Notes under the pieces: model-generated | Told to the model about the DNA's origin: nothing | Seen by the model: only the letters and a program-made list of their open reading frames with translations | Database searches by the model: none | Made by a program: the position numbers and the translations under genes | Part shown: positions 12,668-46,547 of the stretch, in pieces | Numbering within the stretch: position 1 is the first letter of the stretch | Layout of the letters: every line of letters begins with the position of its first letter | Assembly: GCA_947452135.1 (NCBI GenBank) | Contig: CANGBT010000003.1 | Span: 1 to 60,332 of the forward strand | Source: Burkholderiales bacterium | GTDB taxonomy: Bacteria > Pseudomonadota > Gammaproteobacteria > Burkholderiales > Burkholderiaceae_C | Length of the DNA: 60,332 nt | Reading direction: 5' to 3'

Positions 12668-12971
12668 AGGTGCGCTTTCGGCGCGCCGGCCAGGCCGGGC
12701 TGTAAGGGGTGAGCGGTCGCGATCGGACTCATGGGGGGCCTTGCTGTGGCGTTTGCGGTGCTCGGGGTTATATCAATCCCGCCGCCCCCCTCTTCAGGGG
12801 GATGCGCACAAGGACCGCATCGGCCGCTGTCTCCCCGCAAGACACGACCATCCCCCCGCCGGGTGCCCCCTCGCTGGGGAGAGCCAAAAACAGCTCGCGT
12901 CTCCAGAATTTCTCCCAGGCCGACAAGCCAACGGCGCGGCCTGAACCTCAACCTCAACACTGGAGAACATC
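12668..12971. other. Intergenic region with C-rich runs
   Basis: About 300 bp between the divergent rfaE1 and comEA-like genes with no convincing gene; short frames on both strands are proline/arginine-rich and lack homology. It contains several runs of 5-6 C (for example 12786-12796 and 12852-12858). Matching purine runs (CAGGGGG, CTGGGGAGAG) could fold into GC-rich stems. It resembles short intergenic repeats scattered in Burkholderiales genomes, but no second copy is present in this window. The ribosome-binding site ACTGGAG lies just before the 12972 ATG. Confidence 0.35.
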
Positions 12972-16330: not shown

Positions 16331-20602
<4,272 letters not shown>

Positions 20603-22125: not shown

Positions 22126-22193
22126 GCCACCAACTGGCAGACCCCCTCGTTGGAGTGACCTATCAGTTGAGCAAACACCACGAGGTTTCTCTC

Positions 22194-23558
22194 ATGTTGA
22201 AGACTATCTCCTTGTTAATCGTTGCTGTGCTGTGTCTTGGTTTGGGCGGGTGTGGCGGCGACGGCCAGCCTGCGACCGGCGCTCCGCAATTCGACAACGG
22301 CGTGACTGCCGGCAGATCGTCGCTCTCCATCCCGTATGGCCCTGGGGGCTACGTGACGTCGGCGGACTGGTACTTCCCGCCCCAGGCTGACGGCACGGTC
22401 TCGGCCAAAGGCGTCGTCTGGCTCCAGCGCGGCGACACGGCGGGCTTGGCCGCGCTGGCGGCCCAGATCGCAGGCCAGACCAACAGCATCGTCGTGGTGC
22501 CTGTGATCAGTTCCTTCGAGATTCCGACCCAGCCGGGGCGATATCTCGGCAGCGCGGCGATGCAGCAGGCGGTCGCCGACATGATGCTCGGTGACCGTGT
22601 GGCGCTCGGCACGAGCGCGACCGCCGCCGGCTATCCGGGCGTGCTGCCCAAGCGGATCCTGTTTGCCGGTCAGCTCACGGGAGGCGGTTTCGCCGCCGAG
22701 GTGGCCGCACGCACCGTCGACAACGGCGCCGCCGCAAATCTGCTGGGCGTGGTGATGTTCGACGGCGTGGCCAGCCCGGACCAGTTCCCCGCTTCGCTCG
22801 CCAAGCTCGACTCCCTGGGCATCCCGCTCTACCAGATCGCCTCGCCGCCGCAGGCCGCGAACAATTGGGGCAGCACCACGGAACAGCTCGTGGCCCTCCA
22901 CCCCGACCAGTTCGTCGGCGTTCAGCTCGATGACGGCAGCGCCATGAGCGCCGCGATCACGCTCGCCACTGGCTGGATCGGCGACATCTACGAAGGGCGC
23001 GGGCCCACTGATCCCGTCTACGGCATCTACGGCAATCCCAACGACGGCGTCTATGTCCAAAACAAGCCGATCGTGATGGGCGAGACGGGGGTCACCGTGC
23101 TGCCCGCACCGCCGCCGGTTGACATCGCTCAGTACTTGGGCACGTGGTACGAACAGGGCAGCGTGAAGCAAGACCCATCCGTCGTGCTCGTCAACGTCAA
23201 AGCGGTCTACACGTACCAGCCCGGCGGCAGCATCACGGTGGAGAATTCCGGCAACACCTCCGGACCCAGCGGCCCGGAGTGGAGCATCACCGGGTCAGCG
23301 GTGCCGGTCAACGTGTTCAACACCCGCCTCAACGTGAGCTTCTCCGGCGAGCCCAACCGGAACGAGCCGGGCAACTACTGGATCCTCGACTACGCCCCGG
23401 ACTACAGCTGGGTGATCGTCAGCGACGCAAACGGAACGTCGGGCACCATCCTCACCCGTGAGCGGTTCCCCTCTGAGGCCGCGTACAACGCGCGTGTGGC
23501 ACGGGCGTATCGGTTGGGTGTGCGGGGCACCATCACCCCGACCGCGCAGTACCCCTGA
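22194..23558 (+). CDS. Lipoprotein: degenerate alpha/beta-hydrolase-like domain plus lipocalin domain
   Basis: A 454-residue exported lipoprotein. Residues 1-20 form a lipoprotein signal (MLKTISLLIVAVLCLGLGGC) with Cys20 as the lipidation site. The middle (about 30-290) resembles the alpha/beta-hydrolase part of a two-domain family I know mainly from actinobacteria (SIPYGPGGYVTSADWYFPPQ, LLGVVMFDGVASPDQFP). The expected nucleophile elbow G-x-S-x-G reads GQLTGGG near residue 160, so the catalytic serine seems lost. The C-terminal 145 residues are a lipocalin of the Blc type (YLGTWYEQGSVKQ near residue 313, NYWILDYAPDYSWVIVSD), likely binding lipids or other hydrophobic ligands. The ATG at 22194 has GAGG eight bases upstream. 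It follows the IS directly. Confidence 0.78.
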   Translation: MLKTISLLIVAVLCLGLGGCGGDGQPATGAPQFDNGVTAGRSSLSIPYGPGGYVTSADWYFPPQADGTVSAKGVVWLQRGDTAGLAALAAQIAGQTNSIVVVPVISSFEIPTQPGRYLGSAAMQQAVADMMLGDRVALGTSATAAGYPGVLPKRILFAGQLTGGGFAAEVAARTVDNGAAANLLGVVMFDGVASPDQFPASLAKLDSLGIPLYQIASPPQAANNWGSTTEQLVALHPDQFVGVQLDDGSAMSAAITLATGWIGDIYEGRGPTDPVYGIYGNPNDGVYVQNKPIVMGETGVTVLPAPPPVDIAQYLGTWYEQGSVKQDPSVVLVNVKAVYTYQPGGSITVENSGNTSGPSGPEWSITGSAVPVNVFNTRLNVSFSGEPNRNEPGNYWILDYAPDYSWVIVSDANGTSGTILTRERFPSEAAYNARVARAYRLGVRGTITPTAQYP

Positions 23559-23652: not shown

Positions 23653-23704
23653 GCATCCCTTGACGTGGTGGGGGTCGTTGGTTCGAGTCCAATCGCGCCT
23701 ACCA
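23653..23704 (+). pseudogene. tRNA-Val 3' fragment (tRNA remnant)
   Basis: The segment from TTGACGTGGTGGGGGTCG to CCTACCA is the 3' half of a valine tRNA of the GAC type: anticodon loop, variable region, T arm GTTGG-TTCGAGT-CCAAT, 3' acceptor strand CGCGCCT and ACCA. No matching 5' acceptor strand (AGGCGCG) occurs at the required distance. A weak 5'-like piece GCGCGCTCAGTTG lies at about 23590, more than 50 bp too far and lacking the TAG of position 8-10. The piece is therefore a remnant, either of a decayed gene or of an integration event in a tRNA-Val gene. A good terminator follows. Confidence 0.72.
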
Positions 23705-23710
23705 GGTATC

Positions 23711-23745
23711 AGCCCCGGTTCTCATGTGAGAGCCGGGGCTTTTTT
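23711..23745 (+). terminator. Intrinsic terminator after the tRNA-Val fragment
   Basis: AGCCCCGG ... CCGGGGCT with an extended TTCTC/GAGAG inner stem, followed by six T. Six bases after the tRNA fragment's CCA, as expected for an inherited tRNA terminator. Confidence 0.9.
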
Positions 23746-23997
23746 GTTGGGCGACGCCGGAGGTTTGCGCCGTGCGTGGGGCCGGCACGATCGCTTGCAG
23801 TCGATGGCACTTGTCCCTGAGCGGGGCGGTGTTGACCTTCTTGCAAAGCGATCTTGATCAATGGGCGCTTCCGGGACCTGGGCCCGGCTGACTACAGTCC
23901 CGCTTCGGTAACACCGGGAGCTGAGACTGATGAACCACGAGTTCAAGGCGTCACACGAATCGCCGCATTCGCTGCGGTCGGCGGCTCGGGTGCTCTG

Positions 23998-24816
23998 ATG
24001 GACCCGCGCTCGTACCTTTTCGTGCCGGGTGACCGGCCTGAGCGGTTCGCGAAGGCCTTGGCCTGCGGTGCCGATGCGGTTGTGATCGATCTGGAAGACG
24101 CCGTCTCCCCCGCAGCAAAGGACGCTGCGCGCAGCAGCCTGCAAGAGTGGCTCGCCCGGCTGGGTGCTGACAAACCGCCCAAACCGGTGGTCGTGCGCGT
24201 CAACGCTTCTGACACTGCTTGGTTTGAGGATGACCTTCAAGCCTGCGATGCAGCCGCCGTCAGCGCGATCATGGTGCCCAAAGCCGAGCGCGCCGACGAG
24301 TTGAGCCGCATCGCTGCGTTGCAAGGCAAACCGCTGATTGCGTTGGTGGAAACAGCAGCCGGGTTTGACAACCTGCGTGCGGTGGCCTGTGCGACTGGCG
24401 TTCAGCGGTTGGCGTTCGGGTCCATCGACTTCCAACTGGACATGGGCATTTCGGGCGACGGTGATGAGCTGCTGCTGTTCCGCTCGCAAATGGTGTTGAT
24501 GTCTCGCGTGGCCGGACTTGCATCGCCGGTCGATGGGGTGAGCACCTCCATCTCGGATGCGCAGGCGGTTCTGGACGAGGCTCATCGCGCCCGGCGTCTG
24601 GGTTTTGGCGGAAAGCTCTGCATTCACCCGGCGCAGGTCGATGCCGTCAACCGCAGCTTCAGCCCCGGTGCGGCCGAGATTGGCTGGGCGCAACGTGTGC
24701 TGGCTGCGGCCACCGCCGCAAACGGATCGGCGTTTGCCGTGGACGGGAAGATGGTCGACAAGCCGGTGATCCTGCGAGCCGAAGCGATCTTGCGCCAGTT
24801 GGATGGAGGCCCCTGA
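23998..24816 (+). CDS. HpcH/HpaI aldolase family lyase (CitE-like)
   Basis: A 272-residue protein of the CitE-like branch of the HpcH/HpaI family, which cleaves or forms beta-hydroxyacyl-CoA esters such as malyl-CoA or citramalyl-CoA using Mg2+. The N-terminal RSYLFVPGDRPERF is the acyl-CoA-binding signature. ADAVVIDLEDAVSP gives the metal-site acidic residues (Asp31, Glu33, Asp34). VVRVN, ALVETAAGF and LAFGSIDFQLDMG supply the arginine, glutamate and aspartate of the active site, and GKLCIHPAQV is the conserved C-terminal block. The ATG at 23998 starts the homology. Convergent with the CaiB-type gene (66 bp apart). The CoA-transferase neighbour supports a CoA-ester lyase; the exact substrate is open. 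Confidence 0.87.
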   Translation: MDPRSYLFVPGDRPERFAKALACGADAVVIDLEDAVSPAAKDAARSSLQEWLARLGADKPPKPVVVRVNASDTAWFEDDLQACDAAAVSAIMVPKAERADELSRIAALQGKPLIALVETAAGFDNLRAVACATGVQRLAFGSIDFQLDMGISGDGDELLLFRSQMVLMSRVAGLASPVDGVSTSISDAQAVLDEAHRARRLGFGGKLCIHPAQVDAVNRSFSPGAAEIGWAQRVLAAATAANGSAFAVDGKMVDKPVILRAEAILRQLDGGP

Positions 24817-24882
24817 TCCCGTGCGTCCGGCCTGCGGATCAGCCCCGAGCTTGCCGATGTCGATGTGTTGCCAGCCGGTCGC

Positions 24883-26028
24883 TCACCCTGCGCGTCGGGT
24901 GGGCGGTTCGAGCCCCTCACGAATGGCGCTGCCGTGTTCATCGACGCCCGGGACAGAGCGGTAGCTTTCGTCGTCCCATTCGGTGATGTACGGGGTCGCT
25001 GGAAGTTCAACGACGCCGCCGTTGACTTGCATCGGCCGCGTGCGCAACTGGGGGTGGTTGATCAGGTCGTGAACCGAATTGATGGCGCCGTAGGCGGTGT
25101 GGGCTGTGGCGAGGCGCTCGACAACGTCGGCGTAGCTGAGGCTCGAGAACACGCCTTGAATCAGCGCTTCGAGCTCGATGCGGTTTCGGGTTCGTTCGGT
25201 GTTCGAGACAAACGATGGGTTGGTTGCCAGCGCCGGCTGCTGCAGCACGTGCTCACAAAAGCTGACCCATTCCCGCTCGTTCTGAATGGAAAGCACGAAC
25301 TCGCGACCATCACGCGAGGTGAACGCGCCGTACGGCGTGATGCTGGGGTGTTTGAGACCCACACGTTCGGGTGCGCCAGAGCCATAGCGCGCTTGCAGCA
25401 TGGGCACGGACATCAGTTCGGCCGCCGAGTCAAACAAAGACACCTTCACGGCGCTGCCGCGTCCGGTGCGTGAGCGCTGGATGAGTGCCTGCTGAATGCC
25501 GAGCAAGGCGTTCATCCCGGCAGTGATGTCGCAGATGGACACGCCGATGCGCCCCCACGGGCCCGGTGCGCCGCTCACGGCGACCAAGCCGCTTTCGGCC
25601 TGCACCAGCAGGTCGTAGGCCTTGAGTTCATGCAGCGGGCCCGATTCGCCGTAGCCGGAGATGTCGCAGGTGACCAGCCGCGGGTGCTTGCGGCGCAGCT
25701 CATCCGAGCCGAAGGTCAGCCGTGCCGCGGCACCGGGGGCGAGGTTCTGAATGAACACGTCTGCCGTCGCCATCAGCGCGTGCAACCTGGCTCGGGCGTC
25801 GTCTTGTCGCAGGTCGAGAGCGATGGACTCCTTGCCCCGGTTGATCCAGACGAAGTACGCCGATTCGCCGTGCACAGCGGTGTCGTATCCGCGGGCGAAA
25901 TCGCCCTCAGGGCGTTCGATCTTGATGACGCGGGCTCCGGCGTCTGCGAGGCGGCTCGTGCAGTAAGGCGCCGCAACCGCCTGCTCCAGGGCAATGACGG
26001 TCAGCCCATCGAAAGGTTTACCTGACAT
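24883..26028 (-). CDS. CaiB/BaiF family (class III) CoA-transferase
   Basis: A 381-residue class III CoA-transferase that moves CoA between carboxylic acids through an aspartyl-CoA thioester intermediate. The catalytic aspartate is Asp167 in VSICDITAGMNALLGI. Other family blocks are LTVIALEQAVAAPYCTSRLADAG, INRGKESIALDLR, ADVFIQNLAPGAAARL, CDISGYGESGP and YDLLVQAESGL. The substrate is not evident; fumarate-, succinyl- or itaconate-type acids are all used by this family. It lies convergent with the CitE-like gene and 167 bp downstream of the LysR gene in the same orientation, so LysR and CaiB could share a transcript. Confidence 0.9.
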   Translation of the reverse strand: MSGKPFDGLTVIALEQAVAAPYCTSRLADAGARVIKIERPEGDFARGYDTAVHGESAYFVWINRGKESIALDLRQDDARARLHALMATADVFIQNLAPGAAARLTFGSDELRRKHPRLVTCDISGYGESGPLHELKAYDLLVQAESGLVAVSGAPGPWGRIGVSICDITAGMNALLGIQQALIQRSRTGRGSAVKVSLFDSAAELMSVPMLQARYGSGAPERVGLKHPSITPYGAFTSRDGREFVLSIQNEREWVSFCEHVLQQPALATNPSFVSNTERTRNRIELEALIQGVFSSLSYADVVERLATAHTAYGAINSVHDLINHPQLRTRPMQVNGGVVELPATPYITEWDDESYRSVPGVDEHGSAIREGLEPPTRRAG

Positions 26029-26195
26029 TTCCTGTACCTGCCGATCGACGTTGAGTGAGCTTCGTTCCTCGGGGCATTCTTGAAGGCGCTAGGGAAGCCG
26101 TCTATCAGAAGTTCGGCAAGGGGGGCTTGTCCAAAATGAGTCTTCGGGAAAGTACTCAGCCCGAGGCCCGTGGTGCCTGAAGTCGCGCGTTGCGC

Positions 26196-27077
26196 TCAGG
26201 CCGTGAGGTGACTGATCAGCAACGTCAGCGAGGGTTTCGGGGGGCGATCCTTCTTCACGCACACGAGCACCTTGCGTTGTGCCCAGGGCTCGTCCATGGG
26301 CCGTACGGACAGCTTCATGCTTTCGGCCAGCACCTTGGCCGCTTCGTACGGCAAGATGCCCACGCCCATGCCGACTTGCACCATGCGGCACACGGCCTCG
26401 AAGCTGCGGACCTGGATGCGCAGGCGCAGGGCCTTTTCCAGAACGATGGCCTGCTCGGTCAGCAACCTCATCATCGACGAGCCGACCTCAAGTGCCACCA
26501 GGTCGTACTCGAGCACGTCGCTGAAGCTCCAGTTCGAGTCTCTGGCCAGCGGGTGATCCATGGGGGCAATGACCGCGAGACGGTCGGTGCGATACGGAAA
26601 CACCTCCAGCCCTTCGGTTCGCACGCCGTCGATGACGATTCCGATATCGGCCTCGCCCGCGAGCAGGCTGCGCAGGATGTCGCCGCTCCAGCGTTCCTGG
26701 ATGACCAGGCGGATGTCGGGGTTGGCCTTGCCAAATGAAGCCAAGTCCTCAGGCAGGGTCTCGGTCATTGCCGATGTGTTCGCAAGCAGGCGCAGCACGC
26801 CCTTGCGACCGGCTGCGTGGTCGGTCATCTCCGCATTCATGTCATTGAGATGGACCAGCAACGCCTTGGCGTGGCCGAGCAACGACATTCCTGCGGGGGT
26901 GAGTTCAACCCCTCTGGGCGAGCGATCGAGAAGTGGCGTCTTGAAGCGATGCTCGAGCAGTGCGATGCGTCTGCTTGCGGCCGCCACGCCGATGTGGGAC
27001 GCCTCGGCCGCCTTGCTCAGACTGCGCAACTCGGCGGCGCGGACGAACAGAGCCAGGGAATCGATGTCAGGCAGCAT
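26196..27077 (-). CDS. LysR-type transcriptional regulator
   Basis: A 293-residue LTTR. The winged helix-turn-helix occupies about residues 5-65 (LALFVRAAELRSLSKAAEASHIGVAAASRRIALLE, with FKTPLLDRSPRGVELTPAG). The effector domain follows from about 92 (VLRLLANTSAMTETLPEDLASF). It is divergent from the flavin reductase gene, with 288 bp between, the usual arrangement for an LTTR regulating the neighbouring operon. It likely controls the flavin/GST/ALDH/LLM genes to the right and perhaps the CoA-transferase to its left. The inducer is unknown. Confidence 0.9.
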   Translation of the reverse strand: MLPDIDSLALFVRAAELRSLSKAAEASHIGVAAASRRIALLEHRFKTPLLDRSPRGVELTPAGMSLLGHAKALLVHLNDMNAEMTDHAAGRKGVLRLLANTSAMTETLPEDLASFGKANPDIRLVIQERWSGDILRSLLAGEADIGIVIDGVRTEGLEVFPYRTDRLAVIAPMDHPLARDSNWSFSDVLEYDLVALEVGSSMMRLLTEQAIVLEKALRLRIQVRSFEAVCRMVQVGMGVGILPYEAAKVLAESMKLSVRPMDEPWAQRKVLVCVKKDRPPKPSLTLLISHLTA

Positions 27078-27365
27078 TTCGAACCTTTTTCTGGGTGCAA
27101 AAGTATCTCACCGGGGTTGGGCGCCTCGTCACGCGAAAGTCTGGGCGTGCGACGCACCACAGCCCGTGTGGATCGACCAGGTCGCGCCGGCGTTGTGACC
27201 CAAGTTGCGCGGCCGTCTCGACCTAGGGTTTCTAGCGAGTTTGAATTCTTGATGACCTCGGTTGTCCAGAATCAGCTTCTTCCTTTCCGGCGGGTTGCCC
27301 AGAATTCCCTTCATCCGCATGGGCGGTGCACGCAGCACGGCACCGATGGCTGCAAGGAGATGGGA
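27078..27365. promoter_or_regulatory. Divergent control region of LysR gene and flavin-dependent cluster
   Basis: This 288-bp gap between the two divergent genes should hold their promoters and the LysR operator. I could not settle on a single T-N11-A palindrome or a -35/-10 pair. Short frames on both strands here are not supported by any homology. The AAGGAG ribosome-binding site at 27354-27359 fixes the start of the flavin reductase gene. Confidence 0.45.
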
Positions 27366-27947
27366 ATGAGACCGGAGAACGCGCCGACTGAGTCAGCGAG
27401 GCAAGGCGTCAGGATCGTCGGCCTGTCGGGTAATTTCGCCCGGCCTTCGCGCACACGCACGCTGGTTTCGGCCGTGCTCGACAGCGCCGCCGCTCGCGGT
27501 CTCGGATCGACCGAACTGTTCGACCTGGTGGATGCAGGCCCCGGTCTGGGTCAGGCTACCGACCGTTCGCAGGCCGACGCCCAGCTCGAAGCGGTCCTGC
27601 ACGCCGTTCAAAGCGCGGACGCGCTGGTGGTGGGAACGGCTGTCTACAAGGGCGCCTACACGGGCCTCTTCAAGCACTTTTTCGATCTGTACGACATGGA
27701 AGCGCTCGCTCGCAAGCCGGTCATCGTGACGGCGACTGGCGCGTCGCCCGGCCACGCGTCGGTGATCGACTACCACCTCAGGCCGCTGTTCCTGTTCTTC
27801 GACGCGGTGGTGGGCACGCGTGGTCTTTACGCCGTGCAGCAGGACTTCGAGTCGCCGGAGCGCTTGACTGAAGCGTTTTCACGCCGGGTCGAACGCAGCG
27901 TGGACGAACTGCAAGCCATGTTGCACGTGCCCTTGGGTCAATCATGA
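27366..27947 (+). CDS. NAD(P)H-dependent FMN reductase (MsuE/SsuE-like)
   Basis: A 193-residue flavodoxin-fold reductase that supplies reduced FMN to a partner monooxygenase. The FMN-phosphate loop GLSGNFARPSRTRTLV is near residue 20, and VVGTAVYKGAYTGLFKHFFDLYD is the family's second conserved block. MsuE and SsuE serve LLM monooxygenases in sulfonate or sulfone use, and an LLM gene lies 2.7 kb downstream. The start at 27366 was chosen because AAGGAG lies six bases before it; an ATG at 27360 overlaps that site. The next gene overlaps by four bases (ATGA). Confidence 0.88.
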   Translation: MRPENAPTESARQGVRIVGLSGNFARPSRTRTLVSAVLDSAAARGLGSTELFDLVDAGPGLGQATDRSQADAQLEAVLHAVQSADALVVGTAVYKGAYTGLFKHFFDLYDMEALARKPVIVTATGASPGHASVIDYHLRPLFLFFDAVVGTRGLYAVQQDFESPERLTEAFSRRVERSVDELQAMLHVPLGQS

Positions 27948-28468
27948 CGAGCAACTCCACCATCGCCCCCGCGCAGATCACCGTCGAATTCAAGCAGGCG
28001 ATGCGCCGCCTGGCATCCACGGTCACGATCATCAGCACCGCTGATGCCAACGGCAACCGCCACGGCATGACGGCCACGGCGGTCAACTCCATTGCCGCAG
28101 ACCCGCCGTCATTGCTGATCTGCGTCAATCACAGCGCCAGCATCCACACGCCCTTGACGCAGCGCGGGCGCTTTTGCGTCAACGTGCTGACAACCCAGCA
28201 CGAAGAGCTGGTGGCTGCCTTCAGCGGAAAACTCAAGGGTGATGCACGCTTCGAGGTGGGCGAGTGGCGCAACGAAGGTTGCGGCATGCCCTACCTGCAC
28301 GATGCGCAGTGCAACCTGTTCTGTGACGTGGACACCGTGGTGCCGTACGGGACCCACTCGATCGTGATCGGCCGAGTGAGTGCGGTTCTGGTCGGGGAGG
28401 GCGTGTGTCCCCTGGTCTATGCGGATGGCGGACTTCGCTCGACGCAGCCACTGTGCGCAGTCGACTGA
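27944..28468 (+). CDS. Flavin reductase family protein (DIM6/NTAB, HpaC-like)
   Basis: A 174-residue flavin reductase-like, FMN-binding split-barrel protein. Typical blocks are FKQAMRRLASTVTIISTAD at the N-terminus, HGMTATAVNSIAADPPSLLICVNHSAS (flavin-binding loop) and GRFCVNVLTTQHEELVAAFSG. Such proteins hand FADH2 or FMNH2 to two-component monooxygenases. It is translationally coupled to the preceding FMN reductase (overlap ATGA) and lies 22 bp before the GST gene. Two unrelated flavin reductases side by side in one operon is unusual. Confidence 0.9.
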   Translation: MTSNSTIAPAQITVEFKQAMRRLASTVTIISTADANGNRHGMTATAVNSIAADPPSLLICVNHSASIHTPLTQRGRFCVNVLTTQHEELVAAFSGKLKGDARFEVGEWRNEGCGMPYLHDAQCNLFCDVDTVVPYGTHSIVIGRVSAVLVGEGVCPLVYADGGLRSTQPLCAVD

Positions 28469-28490
28469 CCGACGCTCTCGAGGATCCACC

Positions 28491-29099
28491 GTGAAACTGT
28501 TCTACAGCACCACCTCACCGTATTCGCGCGTGGTTCGAATCGCGCTGGCTGAAAAGGGCTTGTCGCAAGTCGAGGGCGTGCTCACCGACCCCTGGAAGGA
28601 CGCAGCCGCGTTGCTTGCGGCCAATCCCAGCGCTCGCGTTCCTACGCTGCAACTCGACTGCGGACGCTCGATCACGGAAAGCCTCCTGATCGTGATGTGG
28701 CTCGAGACACATCAGCCCGTGCCGACCCTGCTCGGTACAGACGCCAGCGCCGTGCTCTCGAAGGCCGGCGTGGCCATGGGCGCTGTCGATGCCGCAGCGG
28801 CGGTGATCATTGGCCGCAAGATGACCGATGCGTCTTTTGACGAATCGCCAGTGGGGCTGCGCCGCAGACGCTCCGTCATTCAGGCCCTGAGCGAGCTTGA
28901 GACCGAACCGCCGGCTCTGTCTGGTGGCATCCCCGACCTGTCCGTCATCGCCACGGTCGTGCTGGTCGACTACGTGCGCTTCCGTTTTCCCGGTGCCACG
29001 TGGGTGCCCGCGACCCCACGGCTGGACCGGCTGGTCGAGCAACTGCGCAGCCGGCCCTCGTTTGCCGATTCGGCTCCCCGTGACATGCCCCCCAGCTGA
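28491..29099 (+). CDS. Glutathione S-transferase family protein
   Basis: A 202-residue cytosolic GST with a thioredoxin-like N-terminal domain (KLFYSTTSPYSRVVRIALAEKGL). The Ser/Tyr in YSTTSPYSR is the likely glutathione-activating region; NPSARVPTL carries the cis-proline and RSITESLLIVMWLE the gamma-glutamyl contact. The C-terminal domain is all-helical. The start is a GTG at 28491 with AGGA upstream. In a catabolic operon, GSTs usually open epoxides, remove halide or nitro groups, or isomerise ring-cleavage products; which applies here cannot be read. Confidence 0.88.
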   Translation: MKLFYSTTSPYSRVVRIALAEKGLSQVEGVLTDPWKDAAALLAANPSARVPTLQLDCGRSITESLLIVMWLETHQPVPTLLGTDASAVLSKAGVAMGAVDAAAAVIIGRKMTDASFDESPVGLRRRRSVIQALSELETEPPALSGGIPDLSVIATVVLVDYVRFRFPGATWVPATPRLDRLVEQLRSRPSFADSAPRDMPPS

Positions 29100-29164
29100 A
29101 CCGTGGGGGTTTTCGAGTTTCAAGAGCCAGGCAGCCGAACCCAGTGAATTCAGGAGAGGACGAG

Positions 29165-30565
29165 ATGTCCACGATCGTTGAAGTCAGGTCACCCTTTGAT
29201 GGCGCTCACGTCGGTCAGGTGAGCGCATCGAATGCGCAAGACATCGAGCGCGCGCTGGCGACGGCCTACGCGCTCTTTCGCGACCGGCGTCAATGGCTGC
29301 CGAAGCAGCGGCGCATCGCGATCCTCAAGCGTGCCGCCGAGATCATCACGTCGCGGCGGGAGGCGATCGCCCGACAGGCGGCACACGAAGGCGGCAAACC
29401 CTACAGGGATTCGTTGATCGAGGTGGACCGGGGCATCGACGGGATCCAGATCTGCATCGATGAGCTGCGAACCAAGGGCGGACACGTGATTCCCATGGAC
29501 CTGAATGCGACATCGGCTGGCCGCGTCGCATTCACACAGTACGAACCAATTGGCGTTGTCGTCGGCGTGAGCGCGTTCAATCACCCGTTCAATCTGGTGG
29601 TGCATCAGGTTGCGCCCGCGATCGCGGTGGGCGCTCCAGTGATCGTGAAGCCCGCGCCGGCCACGCCGTTGAGCTGCAAGACGCTCATCGACATCTTCCA
29701 CGAGGCTGGCTTGCCACCCGACTGGGCGCAGATGGTCCTGCCAACCGACCTCGATCTCGCGACGCGCCTGGTGTCTGACTCGCGCGTGGGCTTTCTTTCG
29801 TTCATCGGCTCGGCGGCCGTGGGCTGGATGCTGCGATCCAAGCTGGCGCCCGGAGCGCGTTGCGCGCTGGAGCATGGTGGCGTGGCGCCTGTCATCGTGT
29901 CCCACGATGCAGACTTGGACATGGCATTGCCCCGGCTCACGCGCGGATCGTTCTGGCATGCCGGCCAGGCTTGCGTGGGCGTGCAGCGCGTGTTTTGTCA
30001 CAGCAGCGTTGCAACCGCGGTCGCCGAGGGCATCGCGCATCTCGGCGCCGGGATGGTCGTCGGTGATCCGTTGCTGGCCACGACTGACGTCGGCCCGCTC
30101 ATCACGCACAAAGAGGTGGACCGGGTCGCGAGCTGGGTCGATGCTGCGGTCGGCGGTGGCGCCAAGCTCGTGTCAGGTGGTCACAAGCTGTCGAGCAGCT
30201 GCTACGCCAACACGGTGTTGCTCAACCCCGAGCTTGATGCCGATGTGACCCGCAAAGAGGTGTTTGGCCCGGTGGTGTGCGTCTACAGCTACGACGACCT
30301 CGATGCGGCCATCGGGCTGGCGAATGACTTGCCCTATTCGTTTCAGGCAGCCGTATTCACGCGCAATGTGGACACCGCGATGCACTGCTACCGCCATCTC
30401 GACGGCACCGCGGTGATGGTGAACGAGAACACCTTGTTTCGTGTCGACTGGATGCCTTTCGGGGGCGCGCGTGCCTCCGGCCACGGCATGGGCGGCATGC
30501 CACACACCATGAGCGACATGCAGACCGAAAAGATGATGGTCTGGCGCTCCGATGCCCTGAACTGA
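29165..30565 (+). CDS. Aldehyde dehydrogenase family protein
   Basis: A 466-residue NAD(P)+-dependent aldehyde dehydrogenase. The catalytic machinery is complete: Asn139 in SAFNHPFN for the oxyanion hole, Glu236 in CALEHGGVAPV as the general base (the usual LELGG is LEHGG), and the nucleophile Cys270 in GQACVGVQRVF. The C-terminal EVFGPVVCVYSYDD and NDLPYSFQAAVFT match the family. A strong AGGAGAGGA site precedes the ATG at 29165. It probably oxidises an aldehyde made by the LLM monooxygenase or GST to the acid. Confidence 0.92.
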   Translation: MSTIVEVRSPFDGAHVGQVSASNAQDIERALATAYALFRDRRQWLPKQRRIAILKRAAEIITSRREAIARQAAHEGGKPYRDSLIEVDRGIDGIQICIDELRTKGGHVIPMDLNATSAGRVAFTQYEPIGVVVGVSAFNHPFNLVVHQVAPAIAVGAPVIVKPAPATPLSCKTLIDIFHEAGLPPDWAQMVLPTDLDLATRLVSDSRVGFLSFIGSAAVGWMLRSKLAPGARCALEHGGVAPVIVSHDADLDMALPRLTRGSFWHAGQACVGVQRVFCHSSVATAVAEGIAHLGAGMVVGDPLLATTDVGPLITHKEVDRVASWVDAAVGGGAKLVSGGHKLSSSCYANTVLLNPELDADVTRKEVFGPVVCVYSYDDLDAAIGLANDLPYSFQAAVFTRNVDTAMHCYRHLDGTAVMVNENTLFRVDWMPFGGARASGHGMGGMPHTMSDMQTEKMMVWRSDALN

Positions 30566-30663
30566 TTCAACCCGCCCGAAAGCTGGAGTTCAAACGGGGC
30601 TGCAGGTGGGCCTCGATGTTTGTCAAAAAGCCGCCGAGTCGGCTATCCCCACTGGAGACTTTC

Positions 30664-31806
30664 ATGAGCAACGCAGATCAGCCGCAACCTCTCACCAACC
30701 CGATGGCGAGCTCGCCGAACAAGATGAAGCTCGGCGTGTTCGCCATCAACGCCCACGGCGGCTGCGCGATCACGACCGCACCCGAGGTGCACCGTGCAGA
30801 GAACTGGCGCACCAACCTCGAGACCATTCAGCTCGCGGACCGCGCCGGCTTCGAGGCTGCCATTCCGATCGGTCGGTGGCGCGGCTTCGGCGGCGAGAGC
30901 AACTTCGGCGGCACCAGCATGGAGACCTACACCTGGGCGGCTGCGATCGCTGCCTCCACCCAGCAGATCGCGACGATCAGCACCTCGCACATGCCGACGG
31001 TTCACCCCTTGTTGGCCGCCAAGCAGGCGGCGACCATCGATCACATCGGCGGCGGGCGGTTTGGCCTCAACATGATCTGTGGCTGGTTCGGTCCCGAAAT
31101 GCGCATGTTCGGCGGCAGCATGATGGAACATGACGAACGCTACGACTTCGCCGATGACTGGCTGTCCGTGGCCCAGGAAGCGTGGACGAAGGAGGGCTAC
31201 TTCGACCACAAGAGCAAGTATTTCAATCTGGTGCAGGCCTTTGCCGAGCCCAAGCCGCTGAACCGGCCTTTCCTCATCAATGCAGGGGGTTCACCGCGCG
31301 GAAAACGCTTTTGCGCCCAACACTGCGACGCGGCTTTCCTCATCCTGGGTTCGCACGACCTGGAAGGCGTGAAAAAACAGGTGCGCGGTTACAAGGATCT
31401 GGCCAAAAACGAGTTCGGCCGTGACATCAAGGTCTGGTGTTACTCCTACGTGTCTGTGGCCGAGACGGTGGAAAAGGCCAAGAAGTACGTGGACCGTTAC
31501 GCGCTCGAGTATGGCGATGACCAGGCCTGCGAGAACATCGTGAAGGAGCTCGGCATTCAGACCGGCATCTTCACGCCGGAGCAGGCCGATCAGTTCCGTT
31601 ATCACTTCAAGGCGGGATGGGCAGGCTTCCCGCTGGTCGGCACCCCTCAGATGATGGTCGACCATCTCGGGATGCTCACCGAGGCTGGCGTCGATGGTGT
31701 TTGCCTGAGTTGGCTGGACTACAACAGCGGGATCAAGCAGTGGAACGCCGAGGTGATGCCGCTGCTCGAAAAAGCCGGTCTGCGCCAACCGTACACGCCG
31801 GTGTAG
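30664..31806 (+). CDS. LLM-class flavin-dependent monooxygenase
   Basis: A 380-residue bacterial luciferase-like TIM-barrel monooxygenase that uses reduced FMN and oxygen. Family blocks are KLGVFAINAHGG at strand one, LADRAGFEAAIPIGRWRGFGG, STSHMPTVHPLLAAKQAATIDHIGGGRFGLNMICGW and MMEHDERYDFADDWL, as in SsuD, SfnG and related proteins. The precise substrate branch is not recognisable; the FAINAHGGCAITTAPEVHR start differs from both SsuD and SfnG. The first residues (about 15) are polar. It is the last gene of the flavin cluster, and two flavin reductases sit upstream. A terminator follows 100 bp later. Confidence 0.9.
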   Translation: MSNADQPQPLTNPMASSPNKMKLGVFAINAHGGCAITTAPEVHRAENWRTNLETIQLADRAGFEAAIPIGRWRGFGGESNFGGTSMETYTWAAAIAASTQQIATISTSHMPTVHPLLAAKQAATIDHIGGGRFGLNMICGWFGPEMRMFGGSMMEHDERYDFADDWLSVAQEAWTKEGYFDHKSKYFNLVQAFAEPKPLNRPFLINAGGSPRGKRFCAQHCDAAFLILGSHDLEGVKKQVRGYKDLAKNEFGRDIKVWCYSYVSVAETVEKAKKYVDRYALEYGDDQACENIVKELGIQTGIFTPEQADQFRYHFKAGWAGFPLVGTPQMMVDHLGMLTEAGVDGVCLSWLDYNSGIKQWNAEVMPLLEKAGLRQPYTPV

Positions 31807-31906
31807 TCAGTTCGCCAAACGTCAGTTTGCCGGCCGGCCGTCAGCCAGGCGGCACAGCGTTTTTGCACGGGTGGGCCCGAATCCAACCTTGCAAGTCAGT
31901 TTTCTG

Positions 31907-31937
31907 CCCCGACTCTCAGGAGAGCCGGGGTTTTTTT
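31907..31937 (+). terminator. Intrinsic terminator after the LLM monooxygenase gene
   Basis: CCCCG(A)CTCTC...GAGAG(C)CGGGG followed by seven T. It closes the flavin-dependent cluster. Confidence 0.9.
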
Positions 31938-32056
31938 CTTTGGGCCACGGTGCGGGGATGTATTCTTCCTGCGGCGCAAATCCTTGCTTTACGGTGGGTC
32001 TGCCAAACCCGTCTCCCGGGTCTGACACTGTCGACTTATCAACCATTTACTGACGC

Positions 32057-41211: not shown

Positions 41212-42096
41212 TCACTTCCCGCGCAGTGCGCTCAATCGTTCGAGGACCGATTCCGGACGCAGTCCGGCGGGGACTTCTGCAAAGTAGAACTGGCCGGGTG
41301 CGAGAGCAGGGCACCCCTCGCCGGCAGCAAAGGCGGCGCTGACATCACAACCAACCGCAGCATCGAGGCCTGAGCCTGTCGTGGTCAGTGCGGCCGAGTT
41401 GGAGATGACCGCATCGAAACTGGCCAGATCGGCTGCCGCCACGGCGGTGGACTCGGGCAGGCGCAAAGCGAGCCCCCAACGGTAGTGATGCACCACGTTG
41501 ACGATGGACTGGTAGTGCGACAGGTCCTCGGCGTTGAAGTCGGCCGCAGCACCCGGCTCCTCGAGCAGCACACCTGAAATCGCATAGGTGGACACCGAAC
41601 GCAACAAGTCGGCGATGTACATCGCGCCGTCTTCGACGTCGTCTCCAGTCATCTCCATCTCGTCGCTGCCCGTCAACTGATTGGCATGATGGATCCAGCG
41701 ACGCGGCGAGGGCAGTGCCAACACGAGCGGGGTCTGACCGCGGAGATGAGACAACACGGCCTCGACCACCTCGGCCAGAACCTGACGCGGCGCCTCGGGT
41801 TCGATCAACCTGCGCAAGGCCGTTGCCGGCCTGCGGCGCTTGTTGACCGACTCGGACCAATCGGCGTGCGAGGCGGCCCAGCTGTCGTACAGATCACCGA
41901 CTTCGAGCACCGCCACGTCGGGCTTGACCAACGCGTGAGCCTGCGAAAAGTAGGCCAGATAGTGCGCCGCACTGACCCACGGATCTCCGGCTTCGCCCAG
42001 CAAGAGGCGCTTTGCGTAGTCGGCCGACTTCAGCCACAGGCGTATTTGCCCGTTGCCTTTGGGCGACGGCAGTTGCGTGGCGAAGCCCTCGCTCAT
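41212..42096 (-). CDS. Apc5-like (epsilon) subunit of acetophenone carboxylase
   Basis: A 294-residue protein (about 32 kDa). I recognise it mainly from place and size: acetophenone carboxylase of Aromatoleum has a fifth, separately purified 34-kDa subunit (Apc5/epsilon) encoded last in the operon. The sequence reads RLWLKSADYAKRLLLGEAGDPWVSAAHYLAYFSQAHALVKPDVAVLEVGDLYDSW. It has a beta/alpha pattern somewhat like the uroporphyrinogen-decarboxylase barrel, but I see no catalytic motif. It overlaps the Apc4-like gene by four bases (42093-42096) and precedes the COG0523 GTPase. Assignment is therefore partly contextual. Confidence 0.72.
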   Translation of the reverse strand: MSEGFATQLPSPKGNGQIRLWLKSADYAKRLLLGEAGDPWVSAAHYLAYFSQAHALVKPDVAVLEVGDLYDSWAASHADWSESVNKRRRPATALRRLIEPEAPRQVLAEVVEAVLSHLRGQTPLVLALPSPRRWIHHANQLTGSDEMEMTGDDVEDGAMYIADLLRSVSTYAISGVLLEEPGAAADFNAEDLSHYQSIVNVVHHYRWGLALRLPESTAVAAADLASFDAVISNSAALTTTGSGLDAAVGCDVSAAFAAGEGCPALAPGQFYFAEVPAGLRPESVLERLSALRGK

Positions 42097-44369
42097 GTCT
42101 TGTCTTCCAGCAAGGCCCCCAGCTGTGCCAGCCTGGCTTCCAACTCATCGATGCGCACATCCTTGGGGTTGCGCATGTAGTTCGGCTTGGGCTTGTTCGC
42201 GTCACGTGTGATGTCGGGGCTGCCGACGTACAACGTGCCGACGTCATCGCCCCAGCAACCGAAGTACTGGAAGAGTGCAGGTGGCTTGGGCTTGTTCCAG
42301 GTCTTGACGAATTCCTTGTACGGAACACCCCGAGCAATACGCGCCTTGCGTTCGGCGTCACGCAGAGCCTTCGTTTCGACAGGATCGATGACCAGAGTCT
42401 CAGGATCGAACTTGACCTTGTAAAGCCGTGCCGCCACGCCTTGTGACATCAGGCCTTCCTCGATGTCACGGATCACAGCGGCCGGATCGCGTTCCAGCAG
42501 ATCGCCATAGCCGGCGCCCGCGCCTTGCGAAATCATGAACAACTCACCGCGCTTGGAGATCTCGAAGCCCATGCCCATGTGATGGGTTGTGTAGGTCGCT
42601 TCCTCAAAAGGTCGCTCGTTCATCAGCTCGGCGATCGAGTGCTTGAACTTGTGCGGCTCGTCGAGCAGCACTTCGTAGGCGTCGACGCCCTTGATCTTGC
42701 ACAGCGGGTAGGTGCCGCAGGCATAGCCGCCGAACAGGCCCTGAATCGGCGGGATCTTGGCGCCTTGGCACACCGTCATGAAGCCCCACTGCTCGCTGTC
42801 CTTGGTGGACGCGATCATGGTGTAGCCCTGACCGCCGCGGTACTTGCCCGGGGCGATGGCGTCCATCGTCATCTTCTTGGAAACGAGCTGCAGGAACGGC
42901 ACGTCTTCTTCGTTGATTTCCTGCTCGCCGATATCGGCCATGGTGGCGAAGATGGGCGCCAAAGCATGTTCGCCGTCCATGTCCGAGCGCGCACCGCCGC
43001 CCATGCCGTTCAAGTCGGCACAAAGGTTACCAAGCAGTTCACCGTGCTGGCTGACGCCACCCCAGATGAACGTGTTGATCATGTTGAAGGTGGGGGCGTG
43101 CACCTTGGTGTACTTCTCGGGGCAGCTGTACAAGAACTTGGCCACCGCGTGCTGGCCCGCGGTGAAGCCAGTGAAGATCGACATCAGACTTTGCGAGTTC
43201 GGCGCGTCGTACGACGAGTTGACGATCGAGTGTGGATCGGTGATCACTTCGATCGGCGCAAAGGCGGCCTGACTGCGTGGCAGGTCGGGCCAGACATAGC
43301 ACAGGAACACTTGCGACAGCATGCCCTTCAGACCCGCCAGGATGGTGTTGGTGGCGCGGTTGGTGAACTCGGGGGCCGAGCCGCGGAAGTCAAAGATCAG
43401 CCGGTCACCAGTCTTGGTGAGCTGGCAGTTGATCTTGACCACGCAGTTCTCGCGCAGCGTCGAGTCCTGGATGATGTAGGTGCGCACCGTCATGTCAGGC
43501 CACTCGCTGATCCGACGTTTCACCTCGGCACGCACGTTCTCCATCGACAGGCGCAGCGTCGAGACCAACGACTCGGGGCCGTCGGTGCGCAGCGTCTCCT
43601 CGATGCGCTGCTTGATCCGCAAGCAGGCGAACAGCTTGACCTTCATGTCCTCGTACTGCAACTTGGGCTCGCGCACCGAGTTCTGCAAGAAGGTCAGGAT
43701 GTCGCGCTTGATCTGGTAGTTCTCGACGACCCGGAACGGGCACATCTTGAGGCCTTCGTCCGAAGGGCTTTCTGCCATGGATGGCATGCCGCCCGGCTCG
43801 ATGGCGCCGTTTTCGCCTTCGTGAACCGTGCAGGCCACCCAGCAGACGATCGATCCTTCGTGGAAGATCGGAACGATCATGCTTTGATCGGTGTTGTGAA
43901 TGTTGCCGTAGCGCGAGTCGTTGTGGATGAAGCCGTCGCCTTCGCGCACGCCCACCGACGGGTCGTTGACCCAGTTCTTGATGATGAACTTGATCGGGTG
44001 GTGCACCAGCGCCGAGAACACCAGCACGCCGCCCGAACTGGCAATCGCCAGATCTCCTGCCGCCGAGTAAACGCCGGTGATCAGGTCACCCCACTTGGCG
44101 CCAGGGGCGGCACCCATTTGCTCGACCATCTCGAAGCCTTCGTCGCAGCCGGCCTGAATGCGATCGCGGATCTTCGCCACCGTGCGCGCATCGCTGACTT
44201 TGGCGATGCACTCGTCTTCATACGCGCTGCGCGGCATGAGGTCGTGGTTTTGCATGATCTCGGGATCTGGCCCGAGAAACAGCGTGGTGTCGTTCAGGAA
44301 TTTCTTGATCAGTGCCACCTCGGCCGTCGTAGGCGTCTTGGCTTTGATTGGCGTTTCGTTTTCGCTCAT
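42093..44369 (-). CDS. Acetophenone carboxylase-type subunit Apc4 (HyuB/AcxA-alpha family)
   Basis: A 758-residue protein of the hydantoinase-B/oxoprolinase family as in acetone and acetophenone carboxylases. Recognisable pieces are TLFLGPDPEIMQNHDLMPRS near the N-terminus and NHDLMPRSAYEDECI. FIHNDSRYGNIHNTDQSMI is the characteristic N-D-x(n)-G-x-H-x-x-D segment, with DFRGSAPEFTNRATN further on. In these enzymes the B-type subunit carries the carboxylation site and, in acetone carboxylase, Mn2+. The operon layout (Apc1-2-3-4-5) favours acetophenone carboxylase over the three-subunit acetone enzyme. Confidence 0.88.
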   Translation of the reverse strand: MSENETPIKAKTPTTAEVALIKKFLNDTTLFLGPDPEIMQNHDLMPRSAYEDECIAKVSDARTVAKIRDRIQAGCDEGFEMVEQMGAAPGAKWGDLITGVYSAAGDLAIASSGGVLVFSALVHHPIKFIIKNWVNDPSVGVREGDGFIHNDSRYGNIHNTDQSMIVPIFHEGSIVCWVACTVHEGENGAIEPGGMPSMAESPSDEGLKMCPFRVVENYQIKRDILTFLQNSVREPKLQYEDMKVKLFACLRIKQRIEETLRTDGPESLVSTLRLSMENVRAEVKRRISEWPDMTVRTYIIQDSTLRENCVVKINCQLTKTGDRLIFDFRGSAPEFTNRATNTILAGLKGMLSQVFLCYVWPDLPRSQAAFAPIEVITDPHSIVNSSYDAPNSQSLMSIFTGFTAGQHAVAKFLYSCPEKYTKVHAPTFNMINTFIWGGVSQHGELLGNLCADLNGMGGGARSDMDGEHALAPIFATMADIGEQEINEEDVPFLQLVSKKMTMDAIAPGKYRGGQGYTMIASTKDSEQWGFMTVCQGAKIPPIQGLFGGYACGTYPLCKIKGVDAYEVLLDEPHKFKHSIAELMNERPFEEATYTTHHMGMGFEISKRGELFMISQGAGAGYGDLLERDPAAVIRDIEEGLMSQGVAARLYKVKFDPETLVIDPVETKALRDAERKARIARGVPYKEFVKTWNKPKPPALFQYFGCWGDDVGTLYVGSPDITRDANKPKPNYMRNPKDVRIDELEARLAQLGALLEDKT

Positions 44370-44402
44370 GTCAGACCTCGTGTAGGGTGTTGAATGCGAC
44401 GC

Positions 44403-46547
44403 TCAGGTCGCACTGGCGCGCAGGAACCATGAGGCGCCCTGGCGCGCTGCAACGAAATTCCAGCCCGGATCAACCAGGAAGGTCGTGACCTCGGAGGCAA
44501 CGATCGCCGGACCGGTGATCTGCACGCCGGGTTCGATGGCCGAGCGGTTCCACACCGGGGTGTCGACCGGGCCTTCGTGTCCGACGAAGTGGCACTTGCG
44601 AACGCTTTCGGGCTGTGGCGGCGCGGTGCGCAGTTCAGGAGCCACTGGCTTGATGTCCTCGAACGTGATGGTCTCGTGCTCCACGAAGGCAGCCACGCGC
44701 ATGGTGTTGATGCGAATGCCGGCCTCTGGTGCCTGACTGCCTTCGCCAAAGCGCTTGCCGTAGTCGTTGGAAAACTGCGAAATGATCGACAGCACGTCGC
44801 CCGGACCGTGCACTTCGTGCTGGCCGATCACGGCCGTGGTCGTTACCAGCTGGTTGCCGTAGCGCATGTCGAGCTCGAGACGGTGCTGGATCTGGTCACG
44901 CGCGATGCCCTGCCGCAGCAGGTCCTGCGTGCCTTGCTCCTTGAGCTCGGCCACGATGCTGTTGAAACGCGAGTAGTCGTCAAAGATGTGACGCGTGTTC
45001 GAGTCGTACAGCACCATGTACAGCGACTGCTCGTGGATGTGCAACTGGTGCATGTTGCCAGCACCGACTGCCGAGAACACGGAGCTGAGCGGCGGCGCCA
45101 GGATCTTGTCGATGCCCAGGTTGCGTGCGATGCCGCAGCCGTGCAGCGGACCATTGCCGCCGTACGCCAGCATGGTGAATTCCTTGGGGTCATAACCCCG
45201 TGCGCGCAGTTCGGTGAACAGGCCGTTGGCCATGTTGTCGTCCACCTTCTCGCGAATCATCAGCGCCGCTTCGATCACCGAGCAATCGAGCTCGTCGCAC
45301 AGCGTGTCCTCGATGGCTGCGGCTGCACGCCGGGCGTTAAGGGGAATCGAGCCGCCCGCGTAGTTCTTGGCGTCGAGGTAGCCGAGCAGCAAGTCTGCAT
45401 CGGTGACGGTGGCGTTCATGCCGCCACGGTCGTAACAAGCGGGCCCCGGGTCGGAGCCGGCGCTTTGCGGGCCGCACTTCACGGTGTTGTACATGCGGTC
45501 GTAGCTGGCGATAGAGCCGCCGCCCGCACCCAGCGTGACCAGGTGAACCATCGGCACGGACACCAGCCAGCGGTCGATCACCGGGTTGAAGTCGTAGTGC
45601 TTGACGCCACCTTCCACCACGATGCCGATGTCGTAGCTGGTGCCGCCCATGTCGGTGGCCACCACGTTGCCCAAGCCAGCTTGCATGGCCAGATGCTCTG
45701 ACGCCGCAATGCCGGATACCGGACCGGAGTGGATGGTCTGCAGCGCGTCGGTGGAGTTCAACTGGGCCATGCCGCCCGAGTTGTGGATGACGAGCATCGG
45801 CTTGTCGTAGCGATGGGCGCGCAAATTCTGCTCGAGCGCCGACAGGGCGTGGTACATCGTCGAGTGCAGGTAACCGTCGACGGCAGCGGAGGTGGAGCGC
45901 ACGTACTCGCCCTTGCGACCGGCCACCTGGTGCGACAGGATGATGGGAATCGCTCCCAGCAGATGCGACGGGTACTCCTCGAACAGGATCTCTTCGATGC
46001 GCTGCTCGTGGGCGGGGTTCACCACGCTGTTGACCAGCGCCACCACGATGATCTGCGCGCCACGGTCGACCAGCGACCTGATCTGCGTGCGCACATCGTC
46101 TTCATCGAGCGGCATGACCAGCTTGCCCTCAAAGTCCAGTCGCTCGCGCACGCCGTAGATCATGTGCGCAGCCACCAGCGGCGCGGGGCGGCTGGCGTTG
46201 GGCATGTTTTGTTGGGCCAGGGTGTCGAGACCGTCGCCGTAGCCGCGGGCGCGGCTGAGCGGCACGGTGGCTTCGAAGCCGGCGGTCACCAGCATGCCGA
46301 TCTTCGGACCCTTGTGCTCGATCAGCGCGTTGGTGCCCAACGTGGTCGCGTAGCGCACCGAATCGACCTCGGACAAGATGGTCTCGAGCTCAAGCCCGAG
46401 CACCTTGTTGGCCTTGCCCAAGGCTTCGTTGAAGCCAAGCGCCAGGTTTTGATGGGTGGTGAGTGCCTTGGCCTCGATGTACCGGCCGTCCCAAACCACA
46501 AAGCAGTCGGTGAAAGTTCCACCGATGTCCACAGATATGCGTCGCAT
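44403..46547 (-). CDS. Acetophenone carboxylase-type subunit Apc3 (HyuA family)
   Basis: A 714-residue hydantoinase-A/oxoprolinase family protein containing two actin/sugar-kinase-like lobes that bind ATP. The N-terminal MRRISVDIGGTFTDCFVV is the phosphate-binding motif, and later blocks VATDMGGTSYDIGIVVEG and LGAGGGSIASYD are typical. It probably phosphorylates the enolate of the ketone substrate or carbonic acid together with Apc4. It lies 33 bp upstream of Apc4 and 63 bp after the Apc2-like gene. Confidence 0.88.
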   Translation of the reverse strand: MRRISVDIGGTFTDCFVVWDGRYIEAKALTTHQNLALGFNEALGKANKVLGLELETILSEVDSVRYATTLGTNALIEHKGPKIGMLVTAGFEATVPLSRARGYGDGLDTLAQQNMPNASRPAPLVAAHMIYGVRERLDFEGKLVMPLDEDDVRTQIRSLVDRGAQIIVVALVNSVVNPAHEQRIEEILFEEYPSHLLGAIPIILSHQVAGRKGEYVRSTSAAVDGYLHSTMYHALSALEQNLRAHRYDKPMLVIHNSGGMAQLNSTDALQTIHSGPVSGIAASEHLAMQAGLGNVVATDMGGTSYDIGIVVEGGVKHYDFNPVIDRWLVSVPMVHLVTLGAGGGSIASYDRMYNTVKCGPQSAGSDPGPACYDRGGMNATVTDADLLLGYLDAKNYAGGSIPLNARRAAAAIEDTLCDELDCSVIEAALMIREKVDDNMANGLFTELRARGYDPKEFTMLAYGGNGPLHGCGIARNLGIDKILAPPLSSVFSAVGAGNMHQLHIHEQSLYMVLYDSNTRHIFDDYSRFNSIVAELKEQGTQDLLRQGIARDQIQHRLELDMRYGNQLVTTTAVIGQHEVHGPGDVLSIISQFSNDYGKRFGEGSQAPEAGIRINTMRVAAFVEHETITFEDIKPVAPELRTAPPQPESVRKCHFVGHEGPVDTPVWNRSAIEPGVQITGPAIVASEVTTFLVDPGWNFVAARQGASWFLRASAT

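Follow-up and report, generated by a model that had tools for sequence, protein, structure and literature searches.

Introduction

Mesaconate is a substrate of class I fumarases, which add water to it to give citramalate (PMC4682846), and in mesaconate utilisation, as described for Burkholderia xenovorans, a citramalate coenzyme A (CoA)-transferase and a citramalyl-CoA lyase then give acetyl-CoA and pyruvate (PMC4682846; PMC12290011). Itaconate is degraded by Ict, Ich and Ccl (PMC12290011). As to flavin-dependent oxygenases, the oxygen pocket of RutA from the Rut pyrimidine pathway has been described (PMC10005588), and flavin-N5-peroxide oxygenases are recognized as a class (PMC7662398). Zeta-class glutathione S-transferases (GSTs) act as cis-trans isomerases (PMC6540824), and the C1/HpaC reductase of Acinetobacter baumannii carries a MarR effector domain and has its flavin reduction switched on by the substrate (PMC10816480). 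Here we describe a cluster of eight genes that resembles each of these systems in part. It lies at positions 23998-31806 of a stretch of DNA from a Burkholderiales bacterium (assembly GCA_947452135.1, contig CANGBT010000003.1, positions 1-60,332 of the forward strand); this whole stretch of 60,332 nt is referred to as the window, and coordinates are those of the window unless another locus is named.

The cluster encodes a CitE-like lyase, a class III CoA-transferase, a LysR-type regulator, two flavin reductases, a GST, an aldehyde dehydrogenase (ALDH) and an oxygenase of the luciferase-like monooxygenase (LLM) class. The cluster is real and rare, it appears to have spread horizontally and, as far as the literature was searched, its pathway is undescribed; searches for the gene set and for ring cleavage by LLM enzymes returned nothing that matched. 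Our tentative reading, held with somewhat less than even confidence, is that it is a catabolic cluster dedicated to one substrate, in which the LLM would lead to a C5 diacid that is broken down to acetyl-CoA and pyruvate, with the GST serving as an isomerase.

Conservation and distribution of the gene set

An earlier note, made from the sequence alone, had listed seven enzymes and a LysR regulator in this segment. We find all eight genes intact at this place, and Pfam assigns each of them to the family named. The two-component flavin mononucleotide (FMN) oxygenase, the ALDH and the CoA activation and cleavage predicted in the same note are supported as well, the genes being conserved as a set. 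GST, ALDH and LLM genes accompanied by CoA-transferase, CitF and/or CitE are found in the window, on plasmid pRLG203 of Rhizobium leguminosarum WSM2304, in Variovorax E3, in Agrobacterium MOPV5 and in genome G1149, i.e., besides the window, four genomes or plasmids share the set, with two classes, Alpha- and Betaproteobacteria, represented, and the LLM of these GST-bearing clusters is 86-89% identical to that of the window. The grouping exceeds chance, and a coincidental one is rejected because the genes are conserved together across relatives; the recurrence of the LLM-GST-ALDH trio is the result that the note had proposed to look for. None of the cluster proteins reached the curated cut-off of a named enzyme in the NCBIfam library, no equivalog of that library matched, and none of the named pathways tested fits the whole set, in agreement with the original impression.

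On pRLG203, a row of GST (63% identity to the window's protein), ALDH (76%), LLM (87%), flavin reductase (70%), FMN reductase (46%), RibB and CoA ester lyase (43%) genes is preceded upstream by those of a CoA-transferase, citF, a class I fumarase and pyruvate carboxylase. G1149 has CitF, CitE, a fused reductase and an orthologous LysR (67%) in addition to the trio. Relatives extend the gene set by RibB(A), CitF and a class I fumarase, as well as by a flavin reductase to which a LysR ligand-binding domain is fused. LysR orthologues are 66-67% identical in the clusters of G399, G1149 and G1222, ALDHs 76-81% on pRLG203 and in Variovorax E3 and G1149, and CoA-transferases 73-75% in Variovorax E3 and G1222. 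The G1222 cluster has a divergent LLM (45%; 66% to the type found in R. etli), yet it keeps the GST, the CoA-transferase (73%), CitF, the class I fumarase (69%) and LysR. Other branches of the LLM, 66-82% identical (Rubrivivax L014, Paraburkholderia rhynchosiae L015, Acetobacteraceae L016, L017), lack the GST and come with another ALDH. Two of these, in a branch whose LLM is 78-82% identical to the window's, carry a gene resembling that of 3-hydroxy-3-methylglutaryl (HMG)-CoA lyase, which in P. rhynchosiae (LLM 78%) is accompanied by genes of a CoA-transferase, LeuC and LeuD.

When 84,980 genomes were scanned with two peptide patterns for the LLM, a procedure that yields a lower bound, at least 10 relatives of 63-89% identity were found. 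In an order-wide sample, the LLM is present (E below 1e-40) in 3 of 399 genomes and in none of the same-family genomes listed there, and the cluster was therefore probably acquired horizontally. No LLM relatives were found in the viral contigs searched.

Some related loci have contents of their own. On pRLG203 (L007), the GST gene overlaps at its start with a gene (12711-12935) annotated as encoding the flavin-binding protein dodecin. Sister LLM clusters (L008, L097, L101) contain an isochorismatase-family hydrolase, a short-chain dehydrogenase/reductase, LeuCD and a gene of the isocitrate lyase/phosphoenolpyruvate mutase family and probably represent a related N-heterocycle pathway. Another conserved LLM cluster, present in R. 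etli, R. tropici and G708 (L009, L010, L102; in the first two on plasmids p42d and pRtrCIAT899a), contains lactonase-like hydrolases, a carboxymuconolactone decarboxylase-like protein and an aminotransferase.

The oxygenase and its flavin supply

In the assembly, which has 2.7 Mb and is 86% complete, no Bac_luciferase protein other than the LLM was found. The LLM falls short of the models of SfnG (TIGR04021, 145.5 bits against a cut-off of 382.95) and RutA (TIGR03612, 128.2 against 498.3) and in a tree groups with neither of the two; the earlier note had considered that it might cluster with an enzyme of known substrate. In the same tree, the five GST-bearing LLMs that are closest are united in one supported clade (96/97), nested within GST-less branches. 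The oxygen-pocket residues Thr105, Asn134 and Trp139 of RutA correspond to T108, N137 and W142 of the window LLM (numbering of P0008), and each of the 39 aligned LLMs keeps this Thr/Asn/Trp pocket, while Ala takes the place of Thr105 in SfnG and 3rao. Judged by sequence, the pocket favours RutA-like N5-peroxide chemistry. SfnG is the nearest solved LLM both by sequence and by fold. The ranking of folds (SfnG, SsuD, RcaE, RutA) was considered as a clue to the substrate and rejected, the structure model (10 sequences only; predicted local distance difference test score 65) being too weak to separate substrates.

Two separate reductases are encoded upstream of the LLM and retained among relatives, as in a two-component FMN oxygenase system. 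Their genes overlap by four base pairs (ATGA, 27944-27947), which bears out the overlap seen initially. The FMN reductase scores 182.3 bits with the MsuE model TIGR03566 (cut-off 212.5) and the flavin reductase 124.1 bits with the RutF model TIGR03615 (cut-off 254.75), so that neither cut-off is reached. Among 24 neighbourhoods, RibB or RibBA is encoded next to many of these LLMs, which suggests a high flavin demand.

The pRLG203 flavin reductase consists of PF01613 and PF03466, i.e., it has a LysR substrate-binding domain attached. Full-length alignments reveal the same fusion in Variovorax E3, P. rhynchosiae, L016, G1149 and G1222, and in the reductase of Variovorax RA8 an IclR-type domain takes the place of the LysR-type one. 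The fused domain is nearest to the type of the cluster's own LysR (34-36% identity, against 23% for another LysR). The C1/HpaC reductase is similar in that a flavin reductase is joined to a regulator-derived ligand domain, but this domain is of the MarR type there, and the reductase of the window is unfused. A literature search for flavin reductase-LysR fusions likewise gave no match. Reductases with LysR-type or IclR-type ligand-binding domains were seen beside LLM oxygenases at 16202-17326 of L007 and 18898-20025 of L008.

The lower route and the GST

The best NCBIfam match of the CitE-like protein is the RipC/Ccl model NF038242 (166.7 bits, below the cut-off of 375). Among solved structures, the chain closest to it is 8khl (E 1.7e-59), whose annotation reads probable acyl-CoA lyase, and we take this chain to be the enzyme of the Pseudomonas aeruginosa itaconate cluster. 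The itaconate-like character suspected earlier holds for this last step but not for the rest: Pfam identifies no itaconyl-CoA hydratase among the eight cluster genes, and the hydratase of the relatives is either LeuCD or a class I fumarase, an enzyme better suited to mesaconate than to itaconate. From gene content, we infer that the combination of hydratase, CoA-transferase and lyase fits branched C5 diacids, the CitE-like protein being a putative (S)-citramalyl-CoA lyase and the CoA-transferase presumably acting on citramalate or mesaconate. This predicted lower half is like that of mesaconate utilisation, but in the window it is joined to an oxygenase, an ALDH, a GST and a flavin supply, and its enzymes are distant from the named models. 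The pyruvate carboxylase gene at the pRLG203 locus points to pyruvate as a product, and LeuC, LeuD and the HMG-CoA-lyase-like protein of P. rhynchosiae are in keeping with a diacid in the cis form and with an acyl-CoA of the 3-hydroxy-3-methyl type, for example citramalyl-CoA. The genome of the window has a class I fumarase gene as a partial copy (71% identical) on contig C101 and a 3' piece on contig C75.

The GST is dedicated to the lower route of the cluster. Its subfamily occurs in 2 of 279 Burkholderiaceae genomes, both times inside such a cluster, and in 1 of 72,556 plasmid records, again inside this cluster. Of 24 neighbourhoods around the LLM and related enzymes, six contain the GST, all six with CitE and/or CitF, and the 18 without it contain neither (0/18 for each). 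The GST is tied to the lower route because G1222 retains it together with the CoA-transferase, CitF and fumarase despite its divergent LLM. The motif TTSP is invariant in six orthologues. Fumarase takes the trans isomer, and enzymes of the LeuCD type take cis diacids. Since the GST precedes a trans-acting fumarase, and zeta GSTs carry out such steps, it would most simply be a cis-trans isomerase. Like the zeta isomerases of maleylacetoacetate and maleylpyruvate, it has a serine-type N-terminus and is placed before a trans-specific step, but it fails the MaiA model (TIGR01262, 45.7 bits against 171, N-terminal half only). The earlier note had predicted glutathione-dependent handling of a reactive intermediate; a dedicated GST is indeed there, whereas handling of an epoxide-like compound is less likely by our analysis than cis-trans isomerization, since the GST follows the CitE/CitF/fumarase module even in G1222.

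Organization of the locus and its surroundings

The coordinates are collected in Table 1; the start of the FMN reductase gene was picked by its ribosome-binding site. The CitE gene converges on that of the CoA-transferase and lies 290 bp to the right of a tRNA 3' fragment, which indicates that in this genome it is not in one operon with the remaining genes. The full-length counterpart of this fragment is a tRNA-Val on contig C24 of the assembly, and no whole tRNA was found at the position of the fragment itself. The fragment resembles an attachment-site scar, and in the usual geometry the element lies to the left of such a scar; it is therefore no proof that the cluster is an island. Similar terminator hairpins (23728-23751 and 31920-31943; 24 nt, 88%) stand 8192 bp apart on either side of the cluster. 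An 8.2-kb island between direct repeats is not claimed, as the right repeat is weak and merely terminator-like.

Table 1. Features of the cluster and its borders
Feature	Position	Strand	Basis
tRNA-Val(gac) 3'-half copy, 47 nt, att-like scar left of the cluster	23658..23704	+	98% identity
Terminator-like hairpin and T run after the tRNA fragment	23714..23751	+	sequence
CitE-like lyase	23998..24816	+	HpcH_HpaI PF03328, E 1.3e-41
Class III CoA-transferase	24883..26028	-	CoA_transf_3 PF02515, E 4.8e-96
LysR-type regulator of the cluster	26196..27077	-	PF00126 + PF03466
MsuE-like NAD(P)H:FMN reductase	about 27366..27947	+	FMN_red PF03358
RutF/HpaC-like flavin reductase, unfused	27944..28468	+	Flavin_Reduct PF01613
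Glutathione S-transferase-fold protein	28491..29099	+	GST_N families; GTG start
Aldehyde dehydrogenase (type A)	29165..30565	+	Aldedh PF00171
LLM-class FMNH2-dependent oxygenase	30664..31806	+	Bac_luciferase PF00296
Terminator-like hairpin closing the right end	31895..31943	+	sequence

Elsewhere in the window, a large protein encoded at 16331-20602 combines an amino-acid-permease-like membrane part with a histidine kinase, two receiver domains and Hpt. The product of 22155-23558 has a lipocalin domain (PF08212) at its C-terminus and a long N-terminal part to which Pfam assigns no family, and a hydantoinase A/B (oxoprolinase-like) pair is encoded on the minus strand at 42093-46547.

Proposed pathway and alternatives

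In the pathway that we tentatively propose, the two reductases would supply FMNH2 to the LLM, which, probably by the flavin-N5-peroxide chemistry of RutA, would open or hydroxylate a small, probably heterocyclic, compound. This would yield a branched C5 semialdehyde acid with a cis double bond, either a methylmaleic semialdehyde or the hydroxybutenolide form of it. The ALDH would oxidise the aldehyde group, and the GST would convert the cis to the trans isomer with glutathione as a catalyst, as the zeta-class isomerases do. A class I fumarase, encoded within the cluster in some relatives and elsewhere in the genome of the window, could hydrate mesaconate to citramalate, which the class III CoA-transferase (with CitF in relatives) would load with CoA, and the CitE-like lyase would split the resulting citramalyl-CoA into acetyl-CoA and pyruvate. 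The LysR protein would sense a pathway compound, and where the reductase is fused, the same compound may switch on flavin reduction via its LysR-type domain. A fuller version is a long shot: the substrate would be a plant-derived methyl-butenolide or similar small ring, the LLM an N5-peroxide enzyme, the GST a new class of glutathione-dependent citraconate/methylmaleic-semialdehyde isomerase, and the reductases would be gated by a LysR-type domain that reads the ligand of the regulator. Several relatives are root- or nodule-associated bacteria.

A number of observations weigh against the C5 pathway. The CitE-like protein, the CoA-transferase and the GST each fail to reach any curated cut-off for a named enzyme, and whole-sequence comparison puts the GST nearer to YibF than to MaiA. 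The class I fumarase gene is outside the cluster of the window and inside it in relatives only, and since it is present in all 10 genomes tested, the enzyme may be just a housekeeping one. CitF was not found in the window's genome, which is 86% complete. The mutual exclusion of GST and LeuCD in the 24 loci is not significant (p 0.54) and was dropped as an argument, and related loci within the neighbourhood counts are not independent. Finally, the sequence leaves room for maleate, fumarate and malyl-CoA. In such a C4 route, the LLM and ALDH would produce maleate, the GST would make the fumarate form of it or of its semialdehyde, and the CoA-transferase and CitE would split malyl-CoA into acetyl-CoA and glyoxylate. 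Malyl-CoA lyases do occur among CitE-like proteins (NF041626 is a weak match), and class I fumarase works on fumarate and malate. We nevertheless regard the C4 route as rather improbable: fumarate and malate enter the tricarboxylic acid cycle directly, which would make the CoA-transferase, CitF, CitE and the HMG-CoA-lyase-like gene of the other branch needless, and the pyruvate carboxylase of pRLG203 speaks for pyruvate.

Ring cleavage of an N-heterocycle in the manner of RutA/RutF, or in that of TgnA/TgnB acting on trigonelline and PyrA on pyridine, with a diacid other than C5 or with the CoA part doing another job, we consider unlikely. With the Rut pathway, the cluster shares the two-component FMN system, the oxygen pocket of the LLM and the RutF-like reductase, and the hydrolase of the sister clusters belongs to the same family as RutB or NicF; however, the Pfam assignments of the window's cluster include neither an amidase nor a deaminase, RutB-D are missing from its genes, the LLM and the reductase are far under the RutA and RutF cut-offs, and the predicted end is CoA-dependent. 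The substrate of the C5 pathway may itself be an N-heterocycle, and the two views are therefore compatible. The earlier note had also seen that sulfone/sulfonate and alkene-oxide routes share only part of the set. Sulfur scavenging has in its favour the likeness of the LLM to SfnG, the dimethylsulfone monooxygenase, and of the FMN reductase to MsuE, but both scores are insufficient, SfnG has Ala for the pocket Thr, the gene partners are different, no sulfonate transporter or sulfite-handling gene was identified in the conserved neighbourhoods examined, and the CoA lyase module would be left unexplained, all of which makes it very improbable. Only slightly better are the prospects of an isoprene-like alkene-oxide route, where the GST would conjugate a reactive epoxide and the CoA-transferase would remove glutathione or activate the acid: isoprene clusters likewise combine GST, ALDH and a class III CoA-transferase, but here there is no diiron oxygenase among the genes, the GST tracks CitE/CitF/fumarase rather than the oxygenase, and the other branch has the same LLM without a GST beside it. 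That the genes are accidental neighbours with no joint function is hardly credible, for although the CitE gene of the window is convergent and apparently transcribed separately, the set is conserved across Alpha- and Betaproteobacteria and has a dedicated GST.

The relatives present one oxygenase with two downstream kits, GST with CitF/CitE and fumarase in one case and an HMG-CoA-lyase-like protein with LeuCD in the other. This natural experiment restricts what the product can be, which can then be tested with purified enzymes. If the proposed C5 pathway is true, mesaconate and citramalate metabolism would gain an upstream route that begins with an oxygenase, a GST subfamily would take on a new role as isomerase, and there would be flavin reductases built with regulator domains and gated by a ligand.

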